This document shows positions 9,097 through 32,876 of a stretch of 33,652 bases of DNA, piece after piece. Every line of letters begins with the position of its first letter. Within the stretch, counting starts at the first letter, position 1. The position numbers were made by a program, and so were the translations under genes. Under the pieces are notes generated by a model. It was not told where the DNA came from. It made no database searches and worked only from the letters and a program-made list of their open reading frames with translations. The DNA comes from Helicobacteraceae bacterium. GTDB taxonomy: Bacteria > Campylobacterota > Campylobacteria > Campylobacterales > Sulfurimonadaceae. The stretch is from contig WTBY01000073.1 of the NCBI GenBank assembly GCA_013138865.1, positions 1 to 33,652 on the forward strand, read 5' to 3'.

Positions 9097-9963
9097 TTGA
9101 AAAAGAAAATATTAGTAACAGGCGGAGCAGGTTTCGTTGGTAGTAACCTTTGTGAGCGATTAGCAAAAGATGAGAACAATGATGTTTACTCATTAGATAA
9201 CTACTTTACTGGAAGCAAAGATAATCATGTTGCAAATGTAACATATATAGAAGGCTCAACTTCTAACATAGCTGAGCTTGTATCATTTAAACCTGACATG
9301 GTATATCACTTAGGTGAATACTCAAGAGTTGAGCAGAGCTTTGGAGATATAGAGAAAGTTTGGGAGTACAACAAAGATGGTATTTTCGCTGTTTTACAGT
9401 TTGTACGTAATGCTGGTTGTAAGATTTTATATGCTGGAAGTAGTACAAAATTTGGTGATGGTGGACTTGGTCGGAGTGCTTCACCTTATGCATGGACAAA
9501 AGCCACAAATACAGAGCTTGTTCAAAACTACGGGACTTGGTTTAATGTTCCATATGCGATCACTTACTTCTACAATGTTTATGGAGAGCGTGAGATCCAA
9601 ACAGGAAAATACGCAACTTTAATAGCTCTATTTAAAGAGAAGATGAAAAACAAAGAGCCACTTACAATCGTAGCACCAGGCGAGCAGAAGAGAAACTTTA
9701 CACATATTGACGACATTATAAATGGACTTGTTCTTGTAGGTGAGAATGGTTATGGTGATGAGTTTGGAATAGGATCACCAGAAGCATATAGCATAAAAGA
9801 GATAGCTCAAATGTATGGTGGTGAGATAGAGATGCTACCTGAGCGTGCAGGTAATAGAATGGTAGCAGACGTAATGAGTGCAAAAACAGAAGCACTAGGT
9901 TGGAAACCAACTCGTACTATTAAGCAGTACATAGAAGAGTGTAGAGCTAAGGAGTGGAAATAA
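9097..9963 (+). CDS. NAD-dependent sugar-nucleotide epimerase/dehydratase
   Basis: A 288-residue extended short-chain dehydrogenase. The Rossmann motif is [10 protein letters not shown] (about 8-17). Catalytic Tyr131 and Lys135 lie in SPYAWTK, with the Ser/Thr element in YAGSSTKFG. The late [14 protein letters not shown] and [12 protein letters not shown] segments are typical of UDP-glucose 4-epimerase-like enzymes. It is slightly short for GalE (about 330), so the exact substrate is open. The start is a TTG, preceded by GGAG inside the end of msbA; no ATG fits the Rossmann N-terminus. rmlA follows one base after the stop. Confidence 0.85.
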
Positions 9964-9964
9964 C

Positions 9965-10855
9965 ATGAAAGGAATAATACTAGCTGGTGGAAGCGGAACT
10001 AGGTTATATCCGATCACAAAAGGTGTATCTAAACAGCTAGTACCTATCTACGACAAACCAATGATCTACTATCCACTATCTGTTTTAATGTTAGCAGGTA
10101 TAAAAGAGGTTCTAATCATCTCTACTCCACAAGACTTACCTCGTTTTGAAGAGTTGCTAGGAGATGGATCTGATCTTGGAATGAAGTTTGAGTATGTCGT
10201 TCAACCATCACCTGATGGTTTAGCACAAGCTTTTATTTTAGGAGAAAAATTTATAGGTAGTGATGATGTTACTTTAGTTCTAGGTGATAATATCTTCTAT
10301 GGACAAGGACTCACAAACCTCTTAGCAGACTCTGTTAAGAATGTAGAAAAAGAGAAAAAAGCAACTGTTTTTGGTTACTATGTAAAAGATCCTGAGCGTT
10401 ATGGAGTTGCAGAGTTTAACGAAGATGGAATAGTAACTTCACTTGAAGAGAAACCAGAGAATCCAAAAAGCAACTACGCAGTTGTAGGTTTATACTTTTA
10501 CCCTAACTCAGTTGTACAAATAGCTAAAAATATAAAACCAAGTGAGCGTGGTGAGTTAGAGATCACAGATGTGAACAAAGAGTATTTAGATAGAGGCGAT
10601 CTTAAAGTAGAGCTTATGGGTAGAGGTTACGCTTGGCTTGATACTGGAACACACGAATCACTTTTAGAAGCTTCACAGTTTATACAAACTATAGAAAATC
10701 GTCAAAGTCTTAAAGTTGCTTGTTTAGAAGAGATCGCTTATGAAATGGGTTATATCTCAAAAGAGAAACTTTTAGAGTTAGCACAACCTTTACATAAAAA
10801 TCAATATGGACAGTACTTAATAAGAAGAGCTTCAATGGGTAGATGTATTAAATAA
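9965..10855 (+). CDS. rfbA: Glucose-1-phosphate thymidylyltransferase (RmlA)
   Basis: A 296-residue nucleotidyltransferase making dTDP-glucose from glucose-1-phosphate and dTTP, the first step to dTDP-L-rhamnose. The signature [11 protein letters not shown] (8-18) and [18 protein letters not shown] are those of Rml[14 protein letters not shown] and the late [17 protein letters not shown] are also specific to this family. Full length. It shares one base with rmlC (ATAATG). Product is feedback-controlled in characterised homologues. Confidence 0.96.
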
Positions 10856-11466
10856 TGAAATTTACAAGAAGTGAAATATCAGATGTAATTATATGTGAAC
10901 CAACCGTTCATGGAGATAGTCGTGGTTACTTTGTAGAGACCTTTCGTGAGGATAAGTTAGAAGAGTTTTTAGGGTTTAAAATTAACTTTATTCAAGATAA
11001 CGAAAGTAAATCAAACAGAGGTGTTCTACGTGGGCTACACTATCAACTTCCACCATTTGCACAGACTAAACTTGTTCGTGTTATACAAGGGAGTGTTTTA
11101 GATATAGCCGTTGATATTCGTAAAGGTAGTCCAACTTTTGGAAAATCTATGTCAATAGTTTTAAGTGCTGAAAATAAAAAGCAACTTCTAATTCCAAGAG
11201 GCTTTGCACATGGTTTTGTAGTTTTAGAAGATGAGACTATTTTTGCATATAAAGTTGATAACTACTATTCACAAGTAAGTGATCGCGGAATTGCCTATAA
11301 CGACAAAGAGTTAAATATTGAGTGGCAAATTCCAGCAAGTGAGCTAAAATTGTCTAAAAAAGATAGAGTTCAACCTCTTTTCAAAGAGACAAATGATCTA
11401 TTTGAATATGGTGTGAATTTATATACCCCAAGAGTACTTCCTCACCAAGGCTCACAGCGTGAGTAA
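10855..11466 (+). CDS. rfbC: dTDP-4-dehydrorhamnose 3,5-epimerase (RmlC)
   Basis: A 203-residue cupin-fold epimerase, third step of dTDP-rhamnose synthesis. GVLRGLHYQLPP holds catalytic His62. DIRKGSPTFGK, LLIPRGFAHGFVVL and the Tyr-rich region around KVDNYYS are family signatures. Slightly longer than typical (about 180-190) because of a C-terminal tail. The last eight bases overlap the GTG start of rmlD. Confidence 0.95.
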   Translation: MKFTRSEISDVIICEPTVHGDSRGYFVETFREDKLEEFLGFKINFIQDNESKSNRGVLRGLHYQLPPFAQTKLVRVIQGSVLDIAVDIRKGSPTFGKSMSIVLSAENKKQLLIPRGFAHGFVVLEDETIFAYKVDNYYSQVSDRGIAYNDKELNIEWQIPASELKLSKKDRVQPLFKETNDLFEYGVNLYTPRVLPHQGSQRE

Positions 11467-12325
11467 TATTTTAGTAACTGGTGCAAATGGACAGTTAGGA
11501 TCTGAGTTTAATGAGCTATCTTGCAGTTATAAATATAACTTTTTTTTTACCTCAAAGAGTGATTTAGATATCTCTAGCGCACAAGATGTTAAAAAGTATA
11601 TAACCACTAACAAAATTACTACTATTATAAATTGTGCTGCGTACACAGCTGTTGATAAAGCTGAATCTGAAGAGATCGAAGCTGATAAAATCAACCATTT
11701 AGCTCTGAAAAATTTAGCCGAAATTTCAAAAGAAAAAAATATAAAACTTATTCATATCTCAACAGACTATGTCTTTGATGGAAAAAACTATAAACCTTAT
11801 TTAGAGAGTGATCTAGTAAATCCAAACTCAGTCTATGGCAAAACAAAACTTGCAGGCGAGATGGCTATGAAAGAGCTAAACCCTCATAACTCTATTATAA
11901 TAAGAACCTCATGGGTATATTCAAGCTTTGGTACAAACTTTGTAAAGAGTATGCTTGCTCTTGGACGCGATCGAGATCATTTAGGTGTTATCTACGATCA
12001 AGTAGGTACTCCAACTTATGCAAGAGATTTAGCAAAAACAATTTTAAACATATTACCTAAAATAAAAAGTGAAAAAGTAGCCATTTACAACTACTCAAAT
12101 GAGGGAGTGCTTAGTTGGTTTGACTTCTCAAAAGAGATTATGAGAATGGCAAAAATAGAGTGTAAAATAAACCCTATAGAGACTTTTGAGTACCCAACTC
12201 CTGCTTCAAGACCATACTACTCACTGCTGAATAAGTCAAAAATTAAAAAAGAGTTTAATATAGAAATACCATACTGGAAAGACTCACTTGATGAGTGTTT
12301 AAGAGTTTTAGGAGAGAGAAAATAA
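11459..12325 (+). CDS. rfbD: dTDP-4-dehydrorhamnose reductase (RmlD)
   Basis: A 288-residue NAD(P)-dependent reductase performing the last step to dTDP-L-rhamnose. Signatures are TGANGQLGSE (7-16), STDYVFDG (101-108), SVYGKTK with catalytic Tyr126 and Lys130, and RTSWVYSSFGTNF. The start is GTG within GTGAGTAA, overlapping the rmlC stop; this gives the expected N-terminus right before the Rossmann motif. The stop overlaps the ATG of the next gene by one base. Confidence 0.95.
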   Translation: MSNILVTGANGQLGSEFNELSCSYKYNFFFTSKSDLDISSAQDVKKYITTNKITTIINCAAYTAVDKAESEEIEADKINHLALKNLAEISKEKNIKLIHISTDYVFDGKNYKPYLESDLVNPNSVYGKTKLAGEMAMKELNPHNSIIIRTSWVYSSFGTNFVKSMLALGRDRDHLGVIYDQVGTPTYARDLAKTILNILPKIKSEKVAIYNYSNEGVLSWFDFSKEIMRMAKIECKINPIETFEYPTPASRPYYSLLNKSKIKKEFNIEIPYWKDSLDECLRVLGERK

Positions 12326-13818
12326 TGCAAAAAAAATTTGATAATTGGAATATACTTAAACAAAATATTAATGATAAAAAAAGATCTGTTCACTTTCGGC
12401 AAGGAGAAATATACTTTATAAATATTGGACAAAATATTGGTTATGAAGTATTTGGAAAACAAGAGGAATTTTTAAGACCGGTATTAATATTTAGAAAAAT
12501 AAACAACTCTACTTTTTTAGCTATTCCCTTAACATCAAAAGTAAAAAATGATAATTTCCACCACACTATAACATTTAAAGATAGAGTTAATAGTGCTATG
12601 ATCACACAAATAAAAACTTTTGACTCAAAAAGATTATTATACAAAATTGGTAAAATAGATAAAGAGACATTTACAGATCTAGAAGAAAAAATAGTAGAAT
12701 TTTACAAGTTAACCCCAAAAAGGGGAGGCTACACTCTTCAAGAAGAAGAGCAGCGAATAAGCAACATTATATCTAAAAAAACTAAGTTTGTAAACAGTGG
12801 TTTAAAAACATTACTATTAACTGGTTGTGCTGGTTTTATAGGTAGTAACTTTGTCCCATATTTTTTACAAAAATATGAAAACTACAACATAATAAACTTA
12901 GACCTTTTAACTTACGCAGGTGAAGAAGCGAACCTAAGTGAAGTTGAAAATAGTGAGCGCTATAAGTTTATAAAAGGTGATATCTGTAACCGTGAATTAG
13001 TTGAATTTATATTTAATGAGTATGATATTAGAGGAGTAATTCATTTTGCTGCAGAGTCTCATGTTGATAACTCTATTAAGAATCCTGGTATTTTTATAGA
13101 GACTAATGTAACTGGAACATATACTTTAGTTGATGTTGCTAAAAACTACTGGATGAGCAGACCTTTTAACTATAAAACAGAGTACGAGGGATGTAGGTTT
13201 CATCATATTTCAACTGATGAAGTTTACGGAACACTAGGAGATACTGGACTATTTACTGAGACTACACCATATGCACCTAACTCACCATACTCAGCTTCAA
13301 AAGCAAGCTCAGATATGATCATACGTTCATATAATGAAACTTATGGACTAAACACAGTGATCACAAACTGCTCAAATAACTATGGTGCTAAACAGCACGA
13401 TGAGAAGCTTATACCAACTATCATAAGAAAAGCTCTAGCAAATGAACCCATCCCTATCTATGGTGATGGTAAAAATATACGTGACTGGTTATATGTACTT
13501 GATCACTGTAAAGGAATTGATCTTGTTTTCCATGATGGGTTGACTTCTAATACTTATAATATAGGTGGAAGAAATGAGAGAGACAATCTATATATAGTCA
13601 ACAAAATATGTGAAATACTTGATCAAAAAGTACCACAAGACAGTAGCTATAAAAGCTTAATAACTTTTGTAGAAGATAGAGCTGGACATGATCGCAGATA
13701 TGCAATCGATGCTACTAAAATAGAAAATGAACTTGGATGGAAAGCTGAAGAAAATTTCGAGAGTGGTATTTTGAAGACTATTGAGTGGTATTTAAAAAAG
13801 TATGAGGAGATAGAATAA
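12325..13818 (+). CDS. rfbB: MazF/PemK-like domain fused to dTDP-glucose 4,6-dehydratase (RmlB)
   Basis: One 497-residue reading frame with two domains that are normally separate. Residues about 24-127 are MazF/PemK-like: RQGEIYFINIG, FLRPVLIF with Arg51, AIPLTSK with Thr70, and TQIKTFDSKRLLYKIGKI; Arg51 and Thr70 fall where MazF has its catalytic Arg and Thr. After a linker (about 128-160), residues 161-497 are a full RmlB: Rossmann TGCAGFIGSN, catalytic Thr297-Asp298-Glu299 in STDEVYG, and Tyr322/Lys326 in SPYSASK. RmlB makes dTDP-4-keto-6-deoxyglucose, the second step to rhamnose. There is no in-frame ATG, GTG or TTG in the linker or at the RmlB N-terminus, so RmlB can only be made as a fusion. 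I chose ATG 12325, coupled to rmlD by ATAATG, over an in-frame GTG at 12295. No antitoxin is adjacent. The linker encodes an IS-end-like sequence (12717-12733). Confidence 0.9.
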   Translation: MQKKFDNWNILKQNINDKKRSVHFRQGEIYFINIGQNIGYEVFGKQEEFLRPVLIFRKINNSTFLAIPLTSKVKNDNFHHTITFKDRVNSAMITQIKTFDSKRLLYKIGKIDKETFTDLEEKIVEFYKLTPKRGGYTLQEEEQRISNIISKKTKFVNSGLKTLLLTGCAGFIGSNFVPYFLQKYENYNIINLDLLTYAGEEANLSEVENSERYKFIKGDICNRELVEFIFNEYDIRGVIHFAAESHVDNSIKNPGIFIETNVTGTYTLVDVAKNYWMSRPFNYKTEYEGCRFHHISTDEVYGTLGDTGLFTETTPYAPNSPYSASKASSDMIIRSYNETYGLNTVITNCSNNYGAKQHDEKLIPTIIRKALANEPIPIYGDGKNIRDWLYVLDHCKGIDLVFHDGLTSNTYNIGGRNERDNLYIVNKICEILDQKVPQDSSYKSLITFVEDRAGHDRRYAIDATKIENELGWKAEENFESGILKTIEWYLKKYEEIE

Positions 13819-14555
13819 TGGAAACAGTTGATATACATGAAATTGAGTGGAATGATGAGAAAGTAGCTAGGTTATGGGATTATTACTCAAAAACTCCTCC
13901 TTATAGTGAAGATTATTTTACAAAAGAGGTAGGAAAAAATATTTTACATGAAACAAGTAAAGTACTTGGAAACTTGGATAATAAAGTTATTTTAGATTTT
14001 GGATGTGGACCAGCATTCTTAATGGATCATATATCTAATTTAAATATTCAACCAAAGAAATATATTGGGCTTGATTTTTCAGAAAAATCTGTTGAAAATA
14101 TTAAAAACAAAAAAAATATTAGTTTTGATCATAATGGCGTTTTTGTCCAACAATTACCATCTAGTATTGAATCCAACTCAATTGATATCTGCTTTTTGAT
14201 AGAAGTTATAGAACATTTAGAAGATGATTATTTAGATGGAACATTAAAAGAGATTTTTAGAGTATTGAAACCAGGTGGCAAACTTATAATAACAACACCA
14301 AACAGTGAAGATTTAGATCAAAGTAAAAACTTTTGCCCAGATTGTGGTTCTATTTATCATAAATGGCAACATGTAAGATCTTTTACTTCACATGTATTAG
14401 AAGAGACTCTATTACAGCATGACTTTAAAACTGTAACAGTTGAAGAGTTGACATTTATTGGTGAAAAAACATCTTTTTTTAAAAAATTAAAGTTAAAACT
14501 TAGAAGATTATCACAACGTAAAAATGGGAATTTGTTTGGAATATTTATAAAATGA
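13818..14555 (+). CDS. SAM-dependent methyltransferase, class I
   Basis: A 245-residue methyltransferase. Motif I is ILDFGCGPAFLMDHI, followed by GLDFSEKSVEN, a LIEVIEHLED post-motif and VLKPGGKLIITTPN. A CPDCGSIYHKWQHVRSF segment gives a possible zinc-binding Cys pair seen in related UbiG-like methyltransferases of glycan clusters. The likely job is O- or N-methylation of a sugar in this polysaccharide; acceptor unknown. It overlaps the fusion gene by one base and the next gene by four (ATGA). Base composition is more AT-rich than the rml genes, as usual for variable glycan genes. Confidence 0.82.
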   Translation: METVDIHEIEWNDEKVARLWDYYSKTPPYSEDYFTKEVGKNILHETSKVLGNLDNKVILDFGCGPAFLMDHISNLNIQPKKYIGLDFSEKSVENIKNKKNISFDHNGVFVQQLPSSIESNSIDICFLIEVIEHLEDDYLDGTLKEIFRVLKPGGKLIITTPNSEDLDQSKNFCPDCGSIYHKWQHVRSFTSHVLEETLLQHDFKTVTVEELTFIGEKTSFFKKLKLKLRRLSQRKNGNLFGIFIK

Positions 14556-15472
14556 ACTTAAATAATGATCTAACTATAGGAATAGTTACATCCACTTACA
14601 ATAGAAATCATTTATTGAATAGATCAATTTTATCTGTTATTAATCAAACTTATTCAAATTGGATACTTTGTGTTATTGATGATTGTTCAACTGATCAAAC
14701 ATCTGAGATGATGCAAGAGTTTATAAATGATGAAAGAATTCATTATATTCAATTGAGTACAAACTCAGGTGTAAACGTTGTTAGAAATAAAGGTTTAGAT
14801 TATTTAATAAATGAAAAAAAATGTGATTTCATTTCAATGCTAGATGATGATGACTATTTTAATAAGAATACATTACTTGAAGCATTTAAAATAATTAAAA
14901 AAAATAAAACTCATAAATGGTTTTCGTCAAATCGAGTATACCCAAATGGTACTAAAATAACACAAGTAGATACGTATGGGTTAGTTTCATATTTAGATTA
15001 TATGGTAGGTGAAAAATTGAAAGGTGATGTAGTGCCATTTATTTCTTCTGATTTAATTGGTAATCTACGTTTCAGTGAATTTGGTTTAAAAGGGAATGAG
15101 TGGCATCTTTTTATACAGCTTAAATCTAATATATTTATGTATGATTTTGATTCAACAGTTAGCGAGTATCTAGAAACTGGTATGACTAATTCAAGTAAGA
15201 AAAAAACTCCAAAAATTATAAAAAAATTTAGAAGAGCTTTAGAACAAAATATTATTTACAACTTAAACAAGGGTCTCACTTATGAAAGTATTGAAGCAAA
15301 AAAATCTAAAAATCTATTAAGAAGTAATAATAGTATAAAGAATAGGTTGAAATACTATCGAAATTCAATTAGATCTTACTTTATAAATATAATAGATTTT
15401 TTAGGTATTTATAATTATTTAATAAAAAGAAACTATAAAAAATATCTAACTATGTTAGGCAATATTCAATAA
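14552..15472 (+). CDS. Glycosyltransferase family 2
   Basis: A 306-residue GT-A fold transferase. N-terminal IVTSTYNRNHLLNRSI, CVIDDCSTDQTSE for nucleotide-sugar binding and the SMLDDDDYF metal-binding motif place it in GT2. The C-terminal third is basic and AT-rich with little conservation. It probably adds one sugar of the O-unit or core; donor and linkage cannot be predicted. It shares four bases with the methyltransferase and one with the next gene. Confidence 0.85.
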   Translation: MNLNNDLTIGIVTSTYNRNHLLNRSILSVINQTYSNWILCVIDDCSTDQTSEMMQEFINDERIHYIQLSTNSGVNVVRNKGLDYLINEKKCDFISMLDDDDYFNKNTLLEAFKIIKKNKTHKWFSSNRVYPNGTKITQVDTYGLVSYLDYMVGEKLKGDVVPFISSDLIGNLRFSEFGLKGNEWHLFIQLKSNIFMYDFDSTVSEYLETGMTNSSKKKTPKIIKKFRRALEQNIIYNLNKGLTYESIEAKKSKNLLRSNNSIKNRLKYYRNSIRSYFINIIDFLGIYNYLIKRNYKKYLTMLGNIQ

Positions 15473-16299
15473 TGGATAATAAAAATTTCCTATCTATTTT
15501 ATTTCTTAGTTTTGATAAGTTCAGTGATGTATTGCCAGTAACATATCATTTTTTTCAAAAAAATTATTCTGAATGTAACTTTAATGTTTACTGGGGCAGT
15601 AATGGGGGAAAAATAGTAGACTTTCATAAAATTGCACCTAAATGGAGCTTAATTCATAATTCTAACTATGACAAAGGTTGGTCACAAAACTTAAAATCAT
15701 ATTTAGAAAATATTAGTACTAAATATGTATTAATAATATTAGATGATTTTTTAATTTTAAATAAACCTGATGAAGAAAAAATATTTAAGGCTCTTAAACT
15801 TATGGAAGAATTTCAAGCGCACTATTGTAGATTAAATCCTAATCCATCAGCTGATATTAAAATTAATGATCACTTTGGATTTATTAAATATTATTCAACA
15901 TATAGAACTTCCTTACAACCTAGTATTTGGAATAGAAAAGAATTACTCAATATTGTAAGTAAATATGAACTTGATCCATGGCAATTTGAACATAAAGCTG
16001 GAATTACTAATGAAAATATAAATGAAGTTTTCTTAGGTGTATTTACTGATATCATTCATGCTTACCATTGTATTGAAAAAGGTAAATGGCTTTCATCTTA
16101 TAAAGAATTATTTCATGAAGAAGGCCTTAATATTAATTATAATAAAAGAGGTACTTGTAATTTAAAAATAAAAAAATATTCTGATACTAAAGAAACCTCA
16201 CTATTTAATTTATTAAAAAATAAAATAAAATTCCATAGAAGAAAATTATTAAAAAAGAATATTTTTAACACTGAATTAAAAATAATTAAATATGATTAA
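15472..16299 (+). CDS. Putative glycosyltransferase of the polysaccharide operon
   Basis: A 275-residue soluble protein, not assigned with certainty. It opens with a beta-strand (FLSILFLSFDKF) and has a DxD-like LIILDDFLILNKPD followed by a QPSIWNRKELL and DPWQFE pattern, resembling poorly studied capsule or LPS glycosyltransferases that end a domain with an acidic, Trp-containing loop. The position between a GT2 gene and the amidotransferase genes supports a glycan role. Very AT-rich, with a Lys-rich C-terminus. Confidence 0.55.
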   Translation: MDNKNFLSILFLSFDKFSDVLPVTYHFFQKNYSECNFNVYWGSNGGKIVDFHKIAPKWSLIHNSNYDKGWSQNLKSYLENISTKYVLIILDDFLILNKPDEEKIFKALKLMEEFQAHYCRLNPNPSADIKINDHFGFIKYYSTYRTSLQPSIWNRKELLNIVSKYELDPWQFEHKAGITNENINEVFLGVFTDIIHAYHCIEKGKWLSSYKELFHEEGLNINYNKRGTCNLKIKKYSDTKETSLFNLLKNKIKFHRRKLLKKNIFNTELKIIKYD

Positions 16300-16317
16300 T
16301 GTAAATAGGATAACTAA

Positions 16318-18045
16318 ATGTGTGGAATAGCAGGATTTATACATACTAAAAATGGTTCGCTAGAAGTTTTAAAACAAATGCAAGCTGCGATCTATCATCG
16401 TGGACCTGATGAACAGCGATCGCTAGAGTTTAATCATGCCTTTATAGGCTTTAATAGACTAAGTATTATTGATCTAAGTTCTGCTTCAATGCAACCTATT
16501 TACCATGAAGAATCAAAAATAGTTCTTAGTTTTAATGGAGAGATATATAACTTTTTAGAATTAAAAGAAGACTTACTTGAAAAAGGGTATACCTTTAGTT
16601 CAGAAGGTGATGCTGAAGTTCTTCTAAAAACTTATTTAGAGTATGGTTTAGAAGATACACTTAGTAAGATAAATGGAATGTTTGCAATCTCTATTTACCA
16701 TATTAAAGAAGATAGACTAATCTTAGCTCGCGATCGTATGGGTAAAAAACCACTCTACTATCAACATATTAACAACTCTGTAATTTACGCTTCAGAACTG
16801 AATGCACTCAAAAAACATCCTAACTTTATAAGTGAATTAGAACCTACTTCTGCACAAAGATATTTAATTTTTGGTGGAGTTCCTGCACCTTACACAATGT
16901 ACAAAAATACAAAAAAGTTAGAAGCTGGTACATATTTAGTGTATGAAAACTCAAAAATTACTATTAAAAGGTATTGGGAGTTATCTTTCAAAAAGAAAGA
17001 TTACACTATATCAAGAGAAGAGGCTTATGAGAGCTTTCATAAGCTTTTAGATAGTAGTTTTGACATAAGAAAATATGCTGATGTACCAAAAGCACTCTAC
17101 CTTTCAGGTGGTATAGACTCTACGATCATAGCAAAACTATTTAATGATCAGAATCTTAAAATAGACTCTATTACTTCTACTTTTGCAAATAAAAAGTCTA
17201 ATGAAGAGAAGTATGCACAAGAAGTTATTAATAGGTATGGCTTTAACTCTAAAAAAATAAATATTCAACTTGACCAAGATGAACTCTTCACTCTTATGAG
17301 TAAAATGCATGAACCTTTTGCAGACTCTGCAATTTTACCAACTATGCAGATGTCAAAACTTGTTAAAGAGTTAGGTTACAAAGTTGTTTTTACTGGTGAT
17401 GGTGGTGATGAACTCCTTGGTGGATATCACTCATCAAAAGATTATTCGTTGCAGTATGAGTGGTTATATAAATTCTTTACGCCAATGAATCTTAAAACAG
17501 AAAAATTTTCTACACTGAAATATTTAAATCCAAAATATAAAGCAACATCATCATTTTTTCAAAATTATTATGAAGCAATTGATCAGAATAGTTATTTAGA
17601 AATTCTAAATGAGACTTTAAATCCTCTAGTTCAACGCTCAACTTCTTTTGTAGAATTTAGACAATTATTTACACTTTTTCATATGCATAATTTTTACAAC
17701 TATAAAGTGGATCGTGCCACTATGGCTTACTCTATTGAAGCTCGATCACCTTTACAGGACTATAGACTATTTGATTATGTTGCAAAATTGCCAACATCGT
17801 ACTATACAACACCAAAAAAAAGAGGAAAACAATTCTTAAAAAAACTCCTTCTAGATGATTTTCCTAATTCATTTGTATATAGAAAAAAGCAAGGCTTCAA
17901 TGTACCTATTGATGATTATATATCACATTTGAATATTGATCAATATATAAATAGTGCTGTAGAATACATAGGTATAGACCGTAATAGATCTAAAATAAAT
18001 AACTACCAACTATTTTCATTAGGTATATGGCTGGAGAATAACTAA
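16318..18045 (+). CDS. asnB: Glutamine-dependent asparagine synthase-like amidotransferase, copy 1
   Basis: A 575-residue two-domain enzyme. The glutaminase domain (about 1-210) starts with nucleophile Cys2 in MCGIAGFI and has YHRGPDEQ and FNGEIYN. The synthetase domain has the ATP-pyrophosphatase loop LYLSGGIDST (about 260) and FTGDGGDELLGGYH. AsnB-like genes in polysaccharide clusters often amidate uronic acids rather than make asparagine; that is inferred here from context. An AGGA ribosome site lies seven bases before the ATG. Copy 2 follows with no gap. The first 1.1 kb of the two genes is almost identical while the C-terminal third is not. Confidence 0.9.
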   Translation: MCGIAGFIHTKNGSLEVLKQMQAAIYHRGPDEQRSLEFNHAFIGFNRLSIIDLSSASMQPIYHEESKIVLSFNGEIYNFLELKEDLLEKGYTFSSEGDAEVLLKTYLEYGLEDTLSKINGMFAISIYHIKEDRLILARDRMGKKPLYYQHINNSVIYASELNALKKHPNFISELEPTSAQRYLIFGGVPAPYTMYKNTKKLEAGTYLVYENSKITIKRYWELSFKKKDYTISREEAYESFHKLLDSSFDIRKYADVPKALYLSGGIDSTIIAKLFNDQNLKIDSITSTFANKKSNEEKYAQEVINRYGFNSKKINIQLDQDELFTLMSKMHEPFADSAILPTMQMSKLVKELGYKVVFTGDGGDELLGGYHSSKDYSLQYEWLYKFFTPMNLKTEKFSTLKYLNPKYKATSSFFQNYYEAIDQNSYLEILNETLNPLVQRSTSFVEFRQLFTLFHMHNFYNYKVDRATMAYSIEARSPLQDYRLFDYVAKLPTSYYTTPKKRGKQFLKKLLLDDFPNSFVYRKKQGFNVPIDDYISHLNIDQYINSAVEYIGIDRNRSKINNYQLFSLGIWLENN

Positions 18046-19782
18046 ATGTGTGGAATAGCAGGATTCATAAATACTAAAAATGGTTCGCTAGAAGTATTAA
18101 AAAAAATGCAAGCTGAGATCTATCATCGTGGACCAGATGAACAGCGATCGCTAGAGTTTAATCAAGCTTTTATAGGCTTTAATAGACTAAGTATTATTGA
18201 TCTAAGCTCTGCTTCAATGCAACCTATTTACCATGAAGAATCAAAAATAGTTCTAAGTTTTAATGGAGAGATCTATAACTTTTTAGAATTAAAAGAAGAC
18301 CTACTTGAAAAAGGATATACCTTTAATTCAGAAGGTGATGCTGAAGTTCTTCTAAAAACTTATTTAGAGTATGGATTAGACACAACTCTAGAAAAAATCA
18401 ATGGAATGTTTGCAATCTCTATTTACCATATTAAAGAAGATAGGCTAATCTTAGCTCGCGATCGTATGGGTAAAAAACCACTCTATTATCAACATATAGA
18501 CAACTCTGTAATTTACGCTTCAGAACTGAATGCACTAAAGAAACATCCTAACTTTATAAGTGAACTAGAACCTACTTCTGCACAAAGATATTTAATTTTT
18601 GGTGGAGTTCCTGCACCTTATACAATGTACAAAAATACAAAAAAACTAGAAGCAGGAACTTATTTAGTTTATGAAAATTCAAGTATTACTATTAAAAAAT
18701 ATTGGGAGCTATCATTCAAAAATAGAGATACCTCCATATCAAGAGAAGAGGCTTATGAGACTTTTCATAAGCTCTTAAATAGTAGTTTTGATATAAGAAA
18801 ATATGCTGATGTGCCAAAAGCACTCTACCTTTCAGGTGGTATAGACTCTACGATCATAGCAAAACTATTTAATGATCAAAACCTTAAGATAGACTCTATT
18901 ACTTCAACTTTTGAAAATAAAAAGTCAAACGAAGAGAAGTATGCACAAGAGGTTATTAATAGATATGGTTTTAACTCTAAAAAAATAAATATAGAACTTG
19001 ACCAAGATGAGCTGTTTGCACTAATGAGTAAAATGGATGAACCTTTTGCGGACTCTGCAATTTTACCAACTATGCAGATGTCAAAACTTGTTAAAGAGTT
19101 AGGTTACAAAGTTGTTTTTACTGGTGATGGTGGTGATGAACTCCTTGGTGGATATCACTCACGAAGAGACTACTCACCTCTTTTTACAGTACCATTTAAT
19201 CACTTAAGTAAATACAACATACATAAAGGCTCTTGGAGCAGTTTAAAGTATTTAAACCCTAAATATAAATCTATTTATGGTTTTATGAAACATAGGCTGA
19301 AATCTGTTGAGCGAGAGAGCTACTTAAATATTATAGATGAAACATTAGAACCATTTATAAATAACTCAACAACGTTTTTAGAGTTCAAGCAGCTCTATAC
19401 AATCTTCAATATGCAAAACTTCTATAACTATAAAGTAGATAGAGCAACTATGGCTTACTCTATTGAAGCACGTTCACCTCTACAAGATTACAGACTTTTT
19501 GATTATATCTTTAAAATTCCAACCTCTTTTTATGCAAGCCCAAAAAAGAAAGGCAAGCAATTTTTAAAAGAGATCTTAGAAGAGGATTTTGATAAATCTT
19601 TTATCTATAGAAAGAAGCAAGGCTTTGGTATGCCTATAGGTGATTATATAGACAAACTAGATGTGCAAAAATATGTGAAACTTAGTTCTGATTACTTAGG
19701 TGTAGATTTTGATAAAACACTAGAGAATGAGAGTAAGTATTACTACTTAACTCTTGGGTTGTGGTTAGAAAAAAATAGTTAA
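18046..19782 (+). CDS. asnB: Glutamine-dependent asparagine synthase-like amidotransferase, copy 2
   Basis: A 578-residue tandem paralogue of copy 1 with the same architecture: Cys2, SGGIDST and FTGDGGDELLGGYHS. Identity with copy 1 is very high and gap-free up to base 19161 (copy 1: 17433), then drops sharply; the following segment (about residues 373-465) differs greatly. The NFYNYKVDRATMAYSIEARSP core returns in both at protein level but with different codons. The C-terminal parts shape the acceptor site, so the two may amidate different substrates. It is the last gene of the plus-strand operon, and its stop overlaps that of the convergent glycosyltransferase. Confidence 0.9.
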   Translation: MCGIAGFINTKNGSLEVLKKMQAEIYHRGPDEQRSLEFNQAFIGFNRLSIIDLSSASMQPIYHEESKIVLSFNGEIYNFLELKEDLLEKGYTFNSEGDAEVLLKTYLEYGLDTTLEKINGMFAISIYHIKEDRLILARDRMGKKPLYYQHIDNSVIYASELNALKKHPNFISELEPTSAQRYLIFGGVPAPYTMYKNTKKLEAGTYLVYENSSITIKKYWELSFKNRDTSISREEAYETFHKLLNSSFDIRKYADVPKALYLSGGIDSTIIAKLFNDQNLKIDSITSTFENKKSNEEKYAQEVINRYGFNSKKINIELDQDELFALMSKMDEPFADSAILPTMQMSKLVKELGYKVVFTGDGGDELLGGYHSRRDYSPLFTVPFNHLSKYNIHKGSWSSLKYLNPKYKSIYGFMKHRLKSVERESYLNIIDETLEPFINNSTTFLEFKQLYTIFNMQNFYNYKVDRATMAYSIEARSPLQDYRLFDYIFKIPTSFYASPKKKGKQFLKEILEEDFDKSFIYRKKQGFGMPIGDYIDKLDVQKYVKLSSDYLGVDFDKTLENESKYYYLTLGLWLEKNS

Positions 19783-20864
19783 TTAAATAATTTTTTGTAC
19801 TCTTTTAAAACAGTTTCAACACTATACGGTGTTAGAATACTTTTAGGTATTTGAGGTGGATTAATTAAAATATCGTTGATTTTTTCTATTAAACATAGTT
19901 CATCATTAAGTAGACATAGATAATTCTTTAGTTCTGGAGTTAAAATTTCATATGGACCAGATGGGCAATCTGTGCTAACTACAGGTATATTTAGTGCCAA
20001 AGCTTCAATTAAAACTGTTGGTAACCCTTCATGCTCAGATGTTAAAATAAAGGCTTTAGCATTTTTGATAATTGGATAAGGATTCTTGTGAAAACCAGAA
20101 AAGATAACACGTTCTTTAATATTTAATTTTTCAACTAAATTTTTCAACTGCTCTTCATCACTCCCTTTACCAACTAAAACTAGCTTAATAGTTTTATTTT
20201 GAAGTTTTGAAAATACATTAAGCAATAGTGTATGGTTTTTTTGTTTTTCAAATCTACCAACGTGAACTAAGTACTCTTCAGTAGGTAGATCAAAATCAAT
20301 TTTCTCATTTGAAAGTGATCTTATGTATTCATAGTCATATGGGTTGTACATTGTTTGAATAGTTTTTGGTTTAATCCCAAGTTCTAAAATATCTTCTTCC
20401 ACTCCCTTAGAGACGGTCAATATTTTTTTATTATTATAAAGTTTACGCAACTTCCACAATTTAATTAATCGCTTTATACCTTTTCTATTTCCAACTTGTC
20501 CAACCGATATAGCATCTCTAGCAACGTAGTAGCCATCAATATTTGCTAGATTCATTAGTTTATGCGTCAAACCTAAACTACCAGCAATAAAATTAATTTT
20601 TCCAAACTTATCTTCTACTGTTTTAATAGCTATTTTTAATTTACTAGCATACTTTTTATTATTCACAGAAGATAACATAGCTCTTTTATAGTTAAGCTGA
20701 ATAATATTAATTCTTTTATCAAAATCAAACTCTATTATATTTTTAATAAGAATAACACTTACATTATAGCCTTGTTCAACAAGCATAGTTGCAATTTTTA
20801 TATTAGAACGCTCAGCACCACCACCTGCAAGTGAATCAATTATTAAAACTATATTTTTTTTCAT
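19779..20864 (-). CDS. Glycosyltransferase family 4
   Basis: A 361-residue GT-B fold enzyme. The N-terminal IIDSLAGGGAERSNIKIA is a common GT4 acceptor-side motif. The donor side has VHVGRFEKQKNH, KLVLVGKGSDE and the EX7E region LTSEHEGLPTVLIEALALNIPVVSTDCPSGPYEIL. Such PSGP-ending enzymes often transfer galactose or N-acetyl-hexosamine, but the sugar is not predictable. It is the last gene of the five-gene minus-strand operon, eight bases after its neighbour. Confidence 0.88.
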   Translation of the reverse strand: MKKNIVLIIDSLAGGGAERSNIKIATMLVEQGYNVSVILIKNIIEFDFDKRINIIQLNYKRAMLSSVNNKKYASKLKIAIKTVEDKFGKINFIAGSLGLTHKLMNLANIDGYYVARDAISVGQVGNRKGIKRLIKLWKLRKLYNNKKILTVSKGVEEDILELGIKPKTIQTMYNPYDYEYIRSLSNEKIDFDLPTEEYLVHVGRFEKQKNHTLLLNVFSKLQNKTIKLVLVGKGSDEEQLKNLVEKLNIKERVIFSGFHKNPYPIIKNAKAFILTSEHEGLPTVLIEALALNIPVVSTDCPSGPYEILTPELKNYLCLLNDELCLIEKINDILINPPQIPKSILTPYSVETVLKEYKKLFN

Positions 20865-20872
20865 CTACGATC

Positions 20873-21931
20873 CTATTTTAATAAACTAAAATACTCATTC
20901 ATCTCACGAGTAGTATTAAATAATTTATGAGATAACTCAATATTTTTATTAGATTTGTTTTGTTCAAGCTCTAGGTTATTTACAATTTCTACTAATTTAT
21001 CATTTAACTTGTCTTGATTTTGTGATTCTACCAATGATATATGCATACCTAAATTAAATAGTTCAGGCATGGAAGAGTTGTCATAAACAATAGTTACAAC
21101 TCCATACGATAGAGTCTCTATTACTGCATTAGAAAAGCCTTCACCTAAGCTTGGAAAGAGCATTATATCAGACTCTTTTATTTTAGTAGTTATATCATCT
21201 ACAAAATTATGAAAAAAGACTTTATCTTTAATTGTTGATGATTTTAAGTACTCTTTTATGAATTCATAATAGTTTTGATCCTCAATATCTCCATAAAAAT
21301 CTATTTGAAAATTACTTTGTTTTAATGCTAAGTATTCACAAGACTTAATAGCATCAAGTTGAGCTTTACCCTCTGTAATTCTTCCGATATTGATTATTTT
21401 AATAATATCATTTGATTCTTTTTTTGCGATTTTGTTGCTTGCATTAAATGAAGCATAAATAATTTTTAATTGAGTGTTTTTAGCAAGTGGAATTACTTTC
21501 TTAACTGACTCCATTATATAATTTGAGTTAGCAATAAAATAGGCTACATTAGAGTAAATTAATTTATGAAAAAAATCTTTCTTAGAGGAATTTTTATATG
21601 TTCCTTGACGAATGATTAAATTAATATCCAAGCCTAAAAATGAAAAGTAAAGGGATTTTAATTCGGAAGCACCAAGAAAGATAATATTATTTATGTTGTC
21701 TTTCTTGAGTATATTTCTAACTTGTTTTATAAGTGAAAAGCTAAAATTTTTTTGAAATAGAACATATTTAGTCTCTATATTTTGTTCAACAGCTTTTTGT
21801 TCTATAAAAGAGTCTTTTCTTGCTATTATATAAACATTAGCTACACTACGTAGAAGTAGTGCAATTTTAATTGCTGCTAACTCCATACCTCCATTATTTT
21901 TAGAGAGACAAACAACTGCTACTGTTTTCAT
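20873..21931 (-). CDS. Glycosyltransferase family 4
   Basis: A 352-residue GT4 enzyme with N-terminal CLSKNNGGMELAAIKIA and C-terminal INIGRITEGKAQLDAI, IDFYGDIEDQNYY and the EX7E region FPSLGEGFSNAVIETLSYG. It belongs to the LPS-core type cluster read from 24612. One base separates it from the upstream gene. Donor and acceptor unknown. Confidence 0.87.
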   Translation of the reverse strand: MKTVAVVCLSKNNGGMELAAIKIALLLRSVANVYIIARKDSFIEQKAVEQNIETKYVLFQKNFSFSLIKQVRNILKKDNINNIIFLGASELKSLYFSFLGLDINLIIRQGTYKNSSKKDFFHKLIYSNVAYFIANSNYIMESVKKVIPLAKNTQLKIIYASFNASNKIAKKESNDIIKIINIGRITEGKAQLDAIKSCEYLALKQSNFQIDFYGDIEDQNYYEFIKEYLKSSTIKDKVFFHNFVDDITTKIKESDIMLFPSLGEGFSNAVIETLSYGVVTIVYDNSSMPELFNLGMHISLVESQNQDKLNDKLVEIVNNLELEQNKSNKNIELSHKLFNTTREMNEYFSLLK

Positions 21932-21932
21932 A

Positions 21933-22760
21933 TTAATACTTATTTAAACCATCATTACAGATGTATCGATTCTCTTGTTGAGCTTCTTTAAAACGTTTAT
22001 GTGCATCAGTTGGATCATATTCAACAGCTGTTCTTTGTTTATGCCATAAATGAAAAACATTTGCTATATTTTTACTAGATACTAGTTTGTACCCAGCAGC
22101 TTTAAACCTCCACGTAAGATCTGTATCGTCACCCAATATCGATAAACCATAACTTTCATCAAAACCGTTAATAGCTACAAAGTCTTCCTTGAAACATGAA
22201 AAATTACAGCCTAATATCTCTGTATTTCTTTTTCTATTTTTTAAAAAAAGTCCATAAAAAAGCCCATCACGATCAAAGTATAAACCTTGTTCAAACCTAA
22301 CTTCTCGATCAAACATAAATTTTAAAGAGTAAATATAGTAATTTTTTTCTACATTAAGTGGAGATAATTTTCCATCTAAAATTTTTTTAGTTGTATCCTC
22401 TGGTAAATTAACTCTTCTACCTGAAAGTATATGCTTCTTTTTAGCTAGTTTTACTTGTACTTCTATAAAATTACTATACGGAACAATATCACCATCTAAA
22501 AATAGAAGATATTCCCCAGTAGCCCTAACTATAGCTTTATTTTGAATAATATTTTTAGCCAAACCAACATCTGGTTGTGAGACATGGATAATATTTAAAA
22601 TATTTTTATACTGCTTTAAAAACTCTATTGTCTCTTTTGTATCATCATCTTCAGCTAGTACTATCTCAAAATTTTTATATGTTTGACTTTTGAAACTATC
22701 CAAAACAATTTGTAAAACTTTTAAATTTTTGTAATAGGCTATTATTATACTTACTTTCAA
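21933..22760 (-). CDS. Glycosyltransferase family 2 with galactosyltransferase-type C-terminus
   Basis: A 275-residue GT2 enzyme. VSIIIAYYKNLKVLQIVL opens it, YLLFLDGDIVPY is the metal-binding DxD region, and the later GCNFSCFKEDFVAINGFDE plus GDDTDLTWRFKAAGYKL matches the glyco_transf_7C/GT2 C-terminal domain seen in chondroitin- and galactosyltransferase-like proteins. Four-base overlap (ATGA) with the gene upstream of it on the minus strand. Confidence 0.86.
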   Translation of the reverse strand: MKVSIIIAYYKNLKVLQIVLDSFKSQTYKNFEIVLAEDDDTKETIEFLKQYKNILNIIHVSQPDVGLAKNIIQNKAIVRATGEYLLFLDGDIVPYSNFIEVQVKLAKKKHILSGRRVNLPEDTTKKILDGKLSPLNVEKNYYIYSLKFMFDREVRFEQGLYFDRDGLFYGLFLKNRKRNTEILGCNFSCFKEDFVAINGFDESYGLSILGDDTDLTWRFKAAGYKLVSSKNIANVFHLWHKQRTAVEYDPTDAHKRFKEAQQENRYICNDGLNKY

Positions 22761-23866
22761 GATATTAGCTCCTCAAATATTTTAGCTAATTTCTCAAACT
22801 GTAATGCAGAATTGAATTTTTCATTGGCTTTCATAAAACCACTTTCAGCAATTTTATTAGTCATAGTTTCACTCTTAATAAGCAACTCTATCTTCTCGTG
22901 CAAAGAGTTACTATTCTGGTTTTCAAATAGTAAGCCATTCTCATTATCATCTATAATTTCTAAAGCACCACAAGCGTTAGCTCCGATCACAGCAGTTTTA
23001 GTATGCATCGCTTCACTAAGGACTAAACCAAATGTTTCACACTTAGTTGCCATTACTATAACATTACATATTTGCATAAAATGAAAAGGATTTTTTAAAA
23101 ATCCGACAAACACTACACTATTTTGTAAATTCTTATCTTCTACTTTCGCTTTTAACTCTTGTAAATATGACTCATGCATAGCGTGACCTACAAAGTAAGC
23201 CTTAACATTTAAACCTTTTTCAACTAGCATCTGTATAGCTTCTATAAGTAAATACTGTCCCTTAACCTCTTCTATACGTCCAACTAAACCAACACAAAAA
23301 CTATCACTCATTCCAAGCTCACTGCGTTGTGCTAAAACTTCTTCCTCATTTAAAAGTTTTACTTTCTCACTTCCCATATAAAGGACTTCAACCTTTGGTC
23401 TTATCTCTTGGGGTACAAACTTTTTAATCTGCTCTGCAACCTGAAAAGTGACCGGCAACATAAGATCTATATTTTTATACAAAAAACGGTGATAGAAATC
23501 ATCTTTAAAACGAGTCATTGTCATATTTCTAGTTTGCGCTATTTGCACATCTTTAGAAGATAATTTTTTAGCTAAGACTGCGATCGGAATATCTTTTGTC
23601 CAATGAATATGAATAATATCAATACCAAGTTCATCTATTATTTTTGAGAGTTTTCTAGCTGCACTAAACATTAAAATATTACTACTCTTTTTAATAAGTC
23701 TGTATTTGTATTCACTTCCTTTATAGTACTGCTCTAGCTTACCAAGTGGATTAATTATACTGGTTACATTAAACTCACTGTTCAATGCCTTTGCACAGCG
23801 AACCATATATAATTCAAGTCCACCAAGGTCAGGAGAAAAACAGACTTCTAAAAGATTTTTTTTCAT
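22757..23866 (-). CDS. Glycosyltransferase family 4
   Basis: A 369-residue GT4 enzyme. The N-terminus has VCFSPDLGGLELYMVRCA and DIIHIHWTKDIPIAVLA. The C-terminal domain has VGLVGRIEEVKGQYLLIEAI, AYFVGHA and the EX7E region TKCETFGLVLSEAMHTKTAVIGANACGALEII. Probably an LPS outer-core or O-unit transferase; specificity unknown. Overlaps both neighbours by four bases. Confidence 0.88.
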   Translation of the reverse strand: MKKNLLEVCFSPDLGGLELYMVRCAKALNSEFNVTSIINPLGKLEQYYKGSEYKYRLIKKSSNILMFSAARKLSKIIDELGIDIIHIHWTKDIPIAVLAKKLSSKDVQIAQTRNMTMTRFKDDFYHRFLYKNIDLMLPVTFQVAEQIKKFVPQEIRPKVEVLYMGSEKVKLLNEEEVLAQRSELGMSDSFCVGLVGRIEEVKGQYLLIEAIQMLVEKGLNVKAYFVGHAMHESYLQELKAKVEDKNLQNSVVFVGFLKNPFHFMQICNVIVMATKCETFGLVLSEAMHTKTAVIGANACGALEIIDDNENGLLFENQNSNSLHEKIELLIKSETMTNKIAESGFMKANEKFNSALQFEKLAKIFEELIS

Positions 23867-24612
23867 TTTTTAAGCTCCAAATTAAGCTCATAAAGTTTTA
23901 TATATTTGTAAAAGTTAGTAACCATGTGTGAAAAGGCGATCACTAAACCTGCATAACCATCTAAAAAACCACGTTTTAATATGTATGTTCTAAAAAAAGA
24001 GTATTTGGCATTTAGTACAGCTTTTAGTGGAGATGAACTTTTTTTTCCTACATTATCTTTAGCATACGCAGTTGAGTAAACGTCAGCTTTTTGAATAAAG
24101 TCACTTAAACTATGGTAGCTATAGTGTTCTAATTCACCTTGAAGTTGCTCCATTTTAAAGCCATCTGTTTTAACTCTCTCATGAACTAACTTATCATTAA
24201 ATATTGTTTCACTTTTATTATACAAACGCTCAAGCTTTTCCAAACCCCAACCAGAGTGTTTCAACTTATAGCCTTTGTAGAAGTTAGATCTAAAAAGTTC
24301 ATATATTACGCCATTTTTTAGCTGTAAAACTTTTAAAGAGTTTAAAAGTTCTTCACTTATAACTTCATCTGCATCTATAGAGAGTATCCACTCATTTTTA
24401 GCAAATGAAGCAGCTCTATTTTTAGTAGGTCCAAAACCTAAAAATTCATCTATAACAAGGTTTGTATTATTATAATTTTTTACTATTTCTTGAGTTCCAT
24501 CATCTGAACCATTATCATAAACTACTACATCGTTAAACTCTTTTAAAGAGTCCAATGTCTTAACAATAGTTTTTATTCCATTTTTTACGATGATAACTGC
24601 AGAAATATTCAT
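23863..24612 (-). CDS. WaaE/KdtX-like glycosyltransferase family 2
   Basis: A 249-residue GT2 enzyme with ISAVIIVKNG, VVVYDNGSDDGTQEIV, the motif GFGPTKNRAAS and ILSIDADEVIS. This combination (short GT2, FxGyGxqKNxA, sxDADExis) is typical of WaaE/KdtX-type LPS inner-core beta-glucosyltransferases. HSGWGLEKLERLYNK and a C-terminal hydrophobic patch also fit. It is the first gene of the minus-strand operon, so the cluster likely makes LPS core. The start is 28 bases from a TATAAT box in the palindrome at 24624-24649. Confidence 0.85.
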   Translation of the reverse strand: MNISAVIIVKNGIKTIVKTLDSLKEFNDVVVYDNGSDDGTQEIVKNYNNTNLVIDEFLGFGPTKNRAASFAKNEWILSIDADEVISEELLNSLKVLQLKNGVIYELFRSNFYKGYKLKHSGWGLEKLERLYNKSETIFNDKLVHERVKTDGFKMEQLQGELEHYSYHSLSDFIQKADVYSTAYAKDNVGKKSSSPLKAVLNAKYSFFRTYILKRGFLDGYAGLVIAFSHMVTNFYKYIKLYELNLELKK

Positions 24613-30620: not shown

Positions 30621-31075
30621 TTAAAAATCTAAAGGACTAATAACTTTACTTTTATTCATTTCTGAAACAACATGAGTATATATCATAGTTGTTTCGACTG
30701 ATTTATGACCCAAAAGCTCCTGTATACTTCGCAAATCTATATCAGCTTGGAGTAGATGAGTAGCGTAAGAGTGTCTAAATATATGTGAAGTTACTCGCTT
30801 GTTTAGGTTGGCTTTTTGAGAGGCTACTTTGATGTTTCGTCCTAGAGTTTGTGCCATAACATGGTGTCTTCTTTTTTCTTTTGTTCTAGGGTCTGAAGAG
30901 ATACTTTTCATAGGAAATAAGTATTGCCATTTTTCTTCAAGCTTTGAGCGTGGGTATTTTTTATCTAAGGCATAAGGTATAAGGTATAAAAACGCTACCG
31001 TAACCATCTTCTAAATCTTGTTTATGAAGAGTTTTAACACTTTGCACCTGCTCAAGTAGTTTTATTTTTAACTGA
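30621..31075 (-). pseudogene. intI: Second integron integrase fragment, frameshifted and 5'-truncated
   Basis: The minus strand encodes about the last 150 residues of an IntI-class recombinase. [25 protein letters not shown] is in one frame; then [47 protein letters not shown] and a final ISPLDF are in another. The frame changes at a seven-base tandem duplication (ATAAGGT twice, 30972-30985 on the plus strand). It retains the second-box His and Arg, the LGH histidine and the Tyr, but lacks the first Arg box and the whole N-terminus. Protein similarity to the copy at 127-852 is very high over the shared part, but many codons differ, so the copies are not a recent duplication. Homology stops abruptly near 31075, where a truncated plus-strand gene begins. 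Confidence 0.85.
30972..30985 (+). repeat. Seven-base tandem duplication disrupting intI
   Basis: ATAAGGT is repeated twice in tandem. Removing one unit restores an uninterrupted minus-strand frame through [14 protein letters not shown], identical in pattern to the other intI copy, so this duplication is the inactivating lesson between the two half-frames. Confidence 0.8.
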
Positions 31076-31829: not shown

Positions 31830-32876
31830 ATGGATAATATTCAATACTATGTTGTAGTTGATAAATCAACTACATTTAACATTGAAGATGAAGAGAAAAT
31901 AAATAAAGTCGAAGTAGAATTTATAGATACAAAGCTTCCCTTTAGTGAAAAAACTATTGATACCTATTTAATTTCAAATGATAAAAATGAATGCGAAAGA
32001 TACATTAAAAATTTAAATAAAGATATACAAAAATATTTCCATATAGAACAAGTAGGAAGTGAAATACAATATACTGCTTTTATAGATATTTTAGGATTTT
32101 CAAATTACATAAAAACTGAAATAACTAATGATTATCAGGCAGAAGAATTTTATGATAATTTTAATGAAGTTATTGAGTATCTTAAACATGAAGAACAAAA
32201 TGAGTTTGCAATTGAGAAGGCAGATTATTTGAACGATATTAAACTTAGATACAGTTGGATTTCAGATACTTTTGTGGTTAGCCTAGAATATATGAATGAG
32301 ATTGAAAAAAATGATGAAAATATCATTAAAGGTATGATGATTTTTAAATTATCTATGATAATTGCTTCCATACACCATTTTATGGCGTCTAAATTTGGAC
32401 TTATTGTTAGAGGTGCAGTCTCATCAAAATATTCATGTATTACAGATAATTTTATTTTAGGAGAAGGTGTAGCAGAAGCTTCAAAACTAGAAAAAGAAAT
32501 AGCAATATATCCTAGAGTTGTTTTTGAAGAAAATATAATAAGTGATGAAATTCATGAAATAATAACACGAGAATATCAAGATAATGATTTAAATTTTATT
32601 TCAAAAGACTGTGATGGTTATTATTTTGTAAATTATTTAGCAATGTTGCAAAATATACCACCCATGATAGGGAAAATGTTTAAAATACCTGATGATAAAA
32701 TTAAAAAAACCTCAGTTAAACAAAAAATAAATGTAATTGAAAAGTATCAAAAAATAGTAGCAAATGGTTTTAAAATACCAAATGAAAAAGTTAAAGCAAA
32801 ATATACATGGCTAACTAATTACTTAGGAAGAGTTCTATTAAAAGAAAAATTTCAAAAAAATATTATTAATAATTGA
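31830..32876 (+). CDS. Nucleotidyl-cyclase-fold protein of unknown function
   Basis: A 348-residue protein. From about residue 78 it follows the class III nucleotidyl cyclase pattern: TAFIDILGFSNYI resembles the first strand with a metal Asp, YSWISDTFVVS fits the hairpin with the second Asp, and VRGAVSSKYSC...ILGEGVAEASKLEKE fits the IGIHTG...GDAVNLAARLE region. The Asn and Arg that stabilise the transition state in true cyclases appear as Ala and Lys, so activity is uncertain. Such proteins are common singletons in accessory islands. The first 75 residues are a separate, unrecognised N-terminal part. GAGG at 31820-31823 supports the ATG. Downstream, the toxin-antitoxin promoter overlaps its stop codon. 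Confidence 0.5.
   Translation: MDNIQYYVVVDKSTTFNIEDEEKINKVEVEFIDTKLPFSEKTIDTYLISNDKNECERYIKNLNKDIQKYFHIEQVGSEIQYTAFIDILGFSNYIKTEITNDYQAEEFYDNFNEVIEYLKHEEQNEFAIEKADYLNDIKLRYSWISDTFVVSLEYMNEIEKNDENIIKGMMIFKLSMIIASIHHFMASKFGLIVRGAVSSKYSCITDNFILGEGVAEASKLEKEIAIYPRVVFEENIISDEIHEIITREYQDNDLNFISKDCDGYYFVNYLAMLQNIPPMIGKMFKIPDDKIKKTSVKQKINVIEKYQKIVANGFKIPNEKVKAKYTWLTNYLGRVLLKEKFQKNIINN

Follow-up and report, generated by a model that had tools for sequence, protein, structure and literature searches.

An abrupt identity step between tandem asnB-type genes of a polysaccharide cluster suggests partial gene conversion

The gene pair and its surroundings

The window (the whole stretch of 33,652 nucleotides that was analysed, contig WTBY01000073.1 of Helicobacteraceae assembly GCA_013138865.1) carries two asnB-type genes, A and B, which abut without a spacer inside a polysaccharide cluster (Table 1). 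Their start codons lie 1728 bases apart, the length of gene A including its stop, in agreement with the repeat period given in an earlier note made from the sequence alone. The same note had described an eight-base leader, ATAACTAA, in front of each ATG. The octamer does precede both start codons; before B, however, it is gene A's own 3′ end (AAT AAC TAA) and thus no separate leader.

Table 1. Coordinates of the asnB pair, of its segments and of neighbouring genes in the window.
Feature	Position	Strand	Remarks
asnB-type amidotransferase A	16318..18045	+	575 aa, intact; PF00733/PF13537; TIGR01536 380.8 bits (cut-off 267.1)
asnB-type amidotransferase B	18046..19782	+	578 aa, intact; PF00733/PF13537; TIGR01536 370.5 bits (cut-off 267.1)
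Putatively homogenised tract, A copy	16310..17433	+	8 bases before ATG + codons 1-372; 92.9% over codons
Putatively homogenised tract, B copy	18038..19161	+	first 8 bases = end of gene A
Fully identical stretch, 111 bases	17323..17433	+	runs through GDGGDELLGGY, ends at breakpoint
Diverged C-terminal part of A	17434..18042	+	53% aa to B; GC3 0.187
Diverged C-terminal part of B	19162..19779	+	66% aa to G002 homologue (codons 373-506); GC3 0.286
Sugar epimerase-like and dTDP-rhamnose genes	9097..13818	+	9097-9963 and RmlB part of 12295-13818 by family
Methyltransferase, family 2 glycosyltransferase, 275-aa protein without family match	13818..16299	+	directly upstream of pair
Five glycosyltransferase genes	19779..24612	-	downstream of pair

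Both products contain a GATase_7 domain (residues 46-165) followed by an Asn_synthase domain (PF00733, residues 241-535 in A and 241-544 in B; 179.2 and 176.6 bits, cut-off 21). With TIGR01536 and PF00733 both above their cut-offs, A and B are predicted to be AsnB-type class II glutamine amidotransferases. They share C2, N73-N78 (NGEIYN), S263, G264, G265, D267 and S268 (SGGxDS), G360, D361, G362, D364 and E365 (GDGxDE), and a C-terminal lysine, K524, invariant across 15 sequences including A and B. Together these residues, with C2 as the N-terminal cysteine, represent the AsnB-type motifs.

Among the neighbouring genes, rmlB was named by family and rmlA, rmlC and rmlD by eye from their translations; an LPS-kinase-like gene is also present in the window. 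Given the dTDP-rhamnose, methyltransferase, glycosyltransferase and LPS-kinase-like genes, the likely product of the cluster is a surface glycan. The 275-aa protein at 15472-16299, between the glycosyltransferase gene and the asnB pair, gave no Pfam or NCBIfam match, and a 348-aa protein at 31830-32876 gave no Pfam match.

Three further observations concern the region as a whole. The three genes at 13818-16299 are AT-richer (GC 0.23-0.27, GC3 0.13-0.16) than 9097-13818 (GC 0.31-0.38), a hint of different origin. A single 507-aa frame at 12295-13818 combines a PemK/MazF-like domain (residues 35-135) with the dTDP-glucose 4,6-dehydratase RmlB (173-502). Within 228 genomes of the family, G199 and G129 gave matches running from PemK into RmlB without a stop, in frames 501 and 502 aa long; in G095 and G118 a PemK match extends about 20 residues into RmlB, so that by sequence the fusion seems to recur. 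Two pieces of tyrosine integrases in inverted orientation flank the region (133-852, plus strand; 30621-31007, minus strand); their DNA is 81% identical across 406 aligned columns (454-851 with 30622-31026). The first piece matches the integron integrase model TIGR02249 minus its first 84 positions, and the second is 128 aa long.

Position of the identity step and behaviour of silent sites

Over codons 1-372 A and B align without gaps and differ at 79 of 1116 bases (92.9% DNA and 94.4% protein identity; codon positions 1, 2 and 3 contributing 15, 10 and 54 differences), whereas from codon 373 onwards identity drops to 61.9% for DNA and 52.7% for protein, with indels. Self-BLAST recovered the same tract as 16307-17433 at 93.1% identity. 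The copies had been described as nearly identical without gaps up to this point; the absence of gaps stands, but with 7% differences "nearly identical" is generous. A likelihood change-point scan of the codon alignment placed the best break at 17433 (gain 123.9 lnL), with a 2-log-unit interval of 17429-17434, i.e. 6 bases, and so returned the sharp breakpoint at 17433/19161 that had been read from the letters. Identity does not fall off gradually, which the earlier note had named as the outcome that would speak against exchange. Its other such outcome, a misassembly collapsed from a single gene, is excluded because the two parts differ by 7% and 38%.

No identical run in the tract exceeds the 111 bases directly before the break. 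When differences were permuted, a run of at least 111 bases arose anywhere in 55 of 5000 permutations and at the 3′ end of the tract in 1 of 5000. A draft assembly of 82 contigs that contains repeats of 93% identity is at risk of joining the genes of two strains into a chimera or of mis-joining a repeat, but with no identical run longer than this, both frames intact and the two tracts differing over most of their length, we consider an assembly artefact very improbable.

Differences within the tract are denser near codons 110-118 and 200-230, and taken together they cluster strongly (the observed value was reached in 0 of 5000 permutations for 30 and 60 bases, and in 2 of 5000 for 90 bases). 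Silent differences are barely clustered (p = 0.027 in 10-codon bins, 0.14-0.36 in wider bins). A mosaic of several conversion events was considered and dropped, since with such weak silent clustering several events are not demonstrated and one event suffices.

The step is also evident at silent sites. Silent codons are identical at 292 of 340 positions up to codon 372 and at 52 of 104 beyond (Fisher p = 5e-13), and NG86 dS is 0.27 in the tract against about 2.2 (saturated) beyond it; dN/dS in the tract is about 0.11. The earlier note had pointed to silent sites in later conserved motifs; codons 461-480, identical in protein, share only 12 of 19 silent codons.

Elsewhere in the order, five pairs of asnB genes lying 3-6 kb apart in their genomes served as controls (L102, L103, L106, L107 and L108). 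They derive from 11 regions with two matches on one contig, among the matches listed in the order-level search, and each comprises two full ORFs; six regions were dropped, among them L111 and L112, in which the stretch was too short for both genes. Selection took the union of two motif filters (L103 and L107 passed only the second, L106 and L108 only the first); the same filters yielded no pair from 21 further loci (L006-L026). The control pairs, which are more diverged in protein than A and B (40-55% in the N-terminal part), show no silent-site step, with silent identities before and after the corresponding point of 62/55, 45/47, 46/46, 43/42 and 56/58 percent. Of the two paralogues in the own genome, the filter picked up the one in L100 but not that in L099; the former shares 60 of 120 and 20 of 47 silent codons with A (50/43 percent) and 66 of 125 and 27 of 54 with B (53/50 percent). 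Controls and paralogue together put the level of long-separated genes at about 50%, so that the 86% of the tract is the anomaly.

An old duplication without recombination, in which the N-terminal part is strongly constrained and the C-terminal part is under relaxed or positive selection, would fit the lower conservation of the C-terminal part across the family, where among 50 homologues an N-terminal identity of 0.4-0.5 accompanies a C-terminal identity of about 0.26 (401 pairs). The step at silent sites means, however, that protein constraint alone is insufficient, and as sole cause of the step it was ruled out by the silent sites and the control pairs; we find a history without recombination scarcely credible. 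In the same comparison (1072 of the 1225 possible pairs fall inside the identity bins given) the five pairs with an N-terminal identity of 0.8-0.9 have C-terminal identities of 0.75-0.88, against 0.94 and 0.56 for A and B.

Homologues and the history of the pair

Homologues were sought in overlapping sets of 228 genomes of the family, 398 of the order and 397 of the class (E ≤ 1e-95), the last two being samples of larger groups. A single close homologue, C, was found, in G002, a genome of the same family and another genus, where the end of contig 121 cuts the gene at codon 506; none was found in the remaining family, order and class genomes. Genome contigs searched for close homologues gave 21 loci with best segments of at most 44% identity, a plasmid search (E ≤ 1e-60) gave seven records at 30-32%, and the viral contigs searched gave no homologue. 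Gene C occurs once in G002 and in a gene setting unlike that of A and B, its neighbours (by eye from translations) being an aminotransferase, an acyltransferase and a glycosyltransferase.

Over codons 1-372 A and B are equidistant from C (69% and 70% in DNA, 76% and 77% in protein), and three-way sites unite A with B 290 times, A with C 20 times and B with C 31 times. Over codons 373-506 the corresponding counts are 64, 40 and 70, and in protein B and C are 66% identical while A stands at 55-56% to either (A-C 55%). Separate trees of the two parts, proposed in the earlier note as a check, pointed the same way, grouping A with B in the N-terminal part (100/98) and B with C in the C-terminal part (96/79), but the AU test rejected no alternative: for the C-terminal tree, with C cut at codon 506, A+B or A+C as sisters each gave p = 0.21, and for the N-terminal tree B+C and A+C gave p = 0.063 and 0.065, just short of rejection. 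The back end of the G002 gene thus groups weakly with B. Taken together, the three-way sites and trees fit an old split between A and B with a recently homogenised N-terminal part.

For 25 of the 47 further homologues listed, identity does not exceed 43% in the N-terminal part and 24% in the C-terminal part. Thirteen other homologues have 92 invariant columns in common; A matches them at 77 of these and B at 78, with 14 departures common to both. These shared departures mark the pair, by alignment, as a distinct offshoot of the family, whose function cannot be read from the family.

The same mosaic could have arisen by the opposite history, that is, a recent tandem duplication of the whole gene after which one back end was replaced from a foreign or distant asnB. 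The silent differences of the tract are spread nearly evenly, as after a single event, and it is B's back end that groups with C, a gene with a GC3 of 0.53-0.58. The GC3 of this part of B (0.286) also exceeds that of its own N-terminal part (0.202, p = 0.024) and of A's C-terminal part (p = 0.020), but these differences are weak and could reflect a later arrival of the back end, or nothing. Replacement moreover requires a foreign donor, conversion just the neighbour. The C-terminal part of A matched only itself, B and C in the 228 family genomes (E ≤ 1e-22), and that of B only itself and A in the 398 sampled order genomes, with no outside donor in either search. We regard replacement as rather unlikely, and prefer cis gene conversion because no outside donor is needed and none was found.

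The earlier note had read the step as gene conversion or as recombination that swapped C-terminal domains. The silent sites, the three-way comparison with C and the control pairs strongly support recombination as its source. Our preferred reading, to which we give a probability of roughly 0.7, is that A and B go back to an old tandem duplication and had their front homogenised by recent recombination, most simply cis gene conversion. Two long-established copies of a glutamine-dependent AsnB-type amidotransferase would have stood side by side in a surface-polysaccharide cluster until the first ~1.12 kb of one was copied over the other. This would have overwritten the glutaminase domain, the linker and the ATP-pyrophosphatase core through GDGGDELLGGY, and the tract would have ended where A and B had already diverged, with purifying selection persisting on both genes.

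Acceptor choice and comparison with known enzymes

The tract does not correspond to one shared glutaminase half, as had been proposed. Beyond the glutaminase domain and the linker it takes in residues 241-372 of the Asn_synthase domain, with the ATP-binding core, and it stops two residues after GDGGDELLGGY, so that the break is no domain border but lies about 130 residues into the synthetase domain. The proteins are least alike over codons 381-400 (15% identity), within a segment that exceeds its counterpart in E. coli AsnB by about 63 residues: the spacing from GGY to the next aligned block is 82 in A against 19, and 91 in B against 28. Structure models have pLDDT below 50 at residues 370-424 and 460-464 of A and at 371-379 and 389-418 of B. 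The extra segment may face the acceptor, and the C-terminal part may set acceptor preference.

Both enzymes presumably turn a carboxyl group, probably one carried by a sugar, into an amide, and the two acceptor specificities suggested by the earlier note are plausible from the sequences. When the whole own genome was searched with PF03721, no nucleotide-sugar dehydrogenase came up in the window or on contig 11, so that a uronic acid acceptor would depend on supply from another part of the genome. Three genes exceeded the PF03721 cut-off, two on contig 16 and one on contig 31; one on contig 16 is TviB-like at 591.8 bits (cut-off 592), an epimerase-like gene lies between the two, and the same contig also has two additional asnB-like genes, 34% and 33% identical to B. 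The uronate could be supplied from contig 16, or the acceptor could be something else.

More tentatively still, and with considerable doubt, the genes may form a modular pair in which conversion keeps the engine (glutaminase plus ATP site) the same in both while an acceptor-facing back end is free to diversify. The cluster would then amidate two different residues, or one residue in two contexts, and the break would lie at a point where the AsnB fold naturally allows acceptor specificity to be swapped. Should the back ends pick different acceptors, nature would have run a chimera experiment here, and the pair would locate where an AsnB-type enzyme tolerates being cut and rejoined and which part selects the substrate. 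If they do not, the pair still offers a clean case of a recombination tract that covers part of a gene and would lead whole-gene trees astray.

E. coli AsnB (PDB 1ct9) and the hydroxyamidotransferase TsnB9 (7ylz) share the fold and are the best structural matches for the models of A and B; they are also the two best sequence matches, at 22-24% identity. The nearest precedent, by analogy, would be sugar amidation by WbpS. WbpS, WbqG and PGN_1234 are AsnB-like enzymes that convert uronic acid to uronamide and, like A and B, are AsnB-type enzymes among surface-glycan genes. Deletion of P. gingivalis PGN_1234 is described as abolishing the uronamide (PMC7468200) and a Helicobacter pullorum wbpS mutant as carrying a truncated disaccharide glycan (PMC6025236), while a Rubrivivax gelatinosus polysaccharide cluster is listed with three genes labelled wbpS (PMC3684757), so that by this account multiple copies per cluster are already known. 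PMC7468200 also places WbpS in the TIGR03108 eps_aminotran_1 family. Against that model A and B score 371.4 and 361.7 bits, under the cut-off of 816.9. The pair further differs from the WbpS case in forming a direct tandem with an identity step and in having no nucleotide-sugar dehydrogenase nearby in the window.

Among titles and abstract openings, a literature search combining asparagine synthase with gene conversion returned nothing on the subject. Gene conversion between paralogues that differ over part of their length occurs in the adhesin genes babA and babB of H. pylori. Unlike these, A and B do not encode adhesins; like them, they show a step-like identity between paralogues, probably produced by recombination. 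Events of this type are known, as is the enzyme family.
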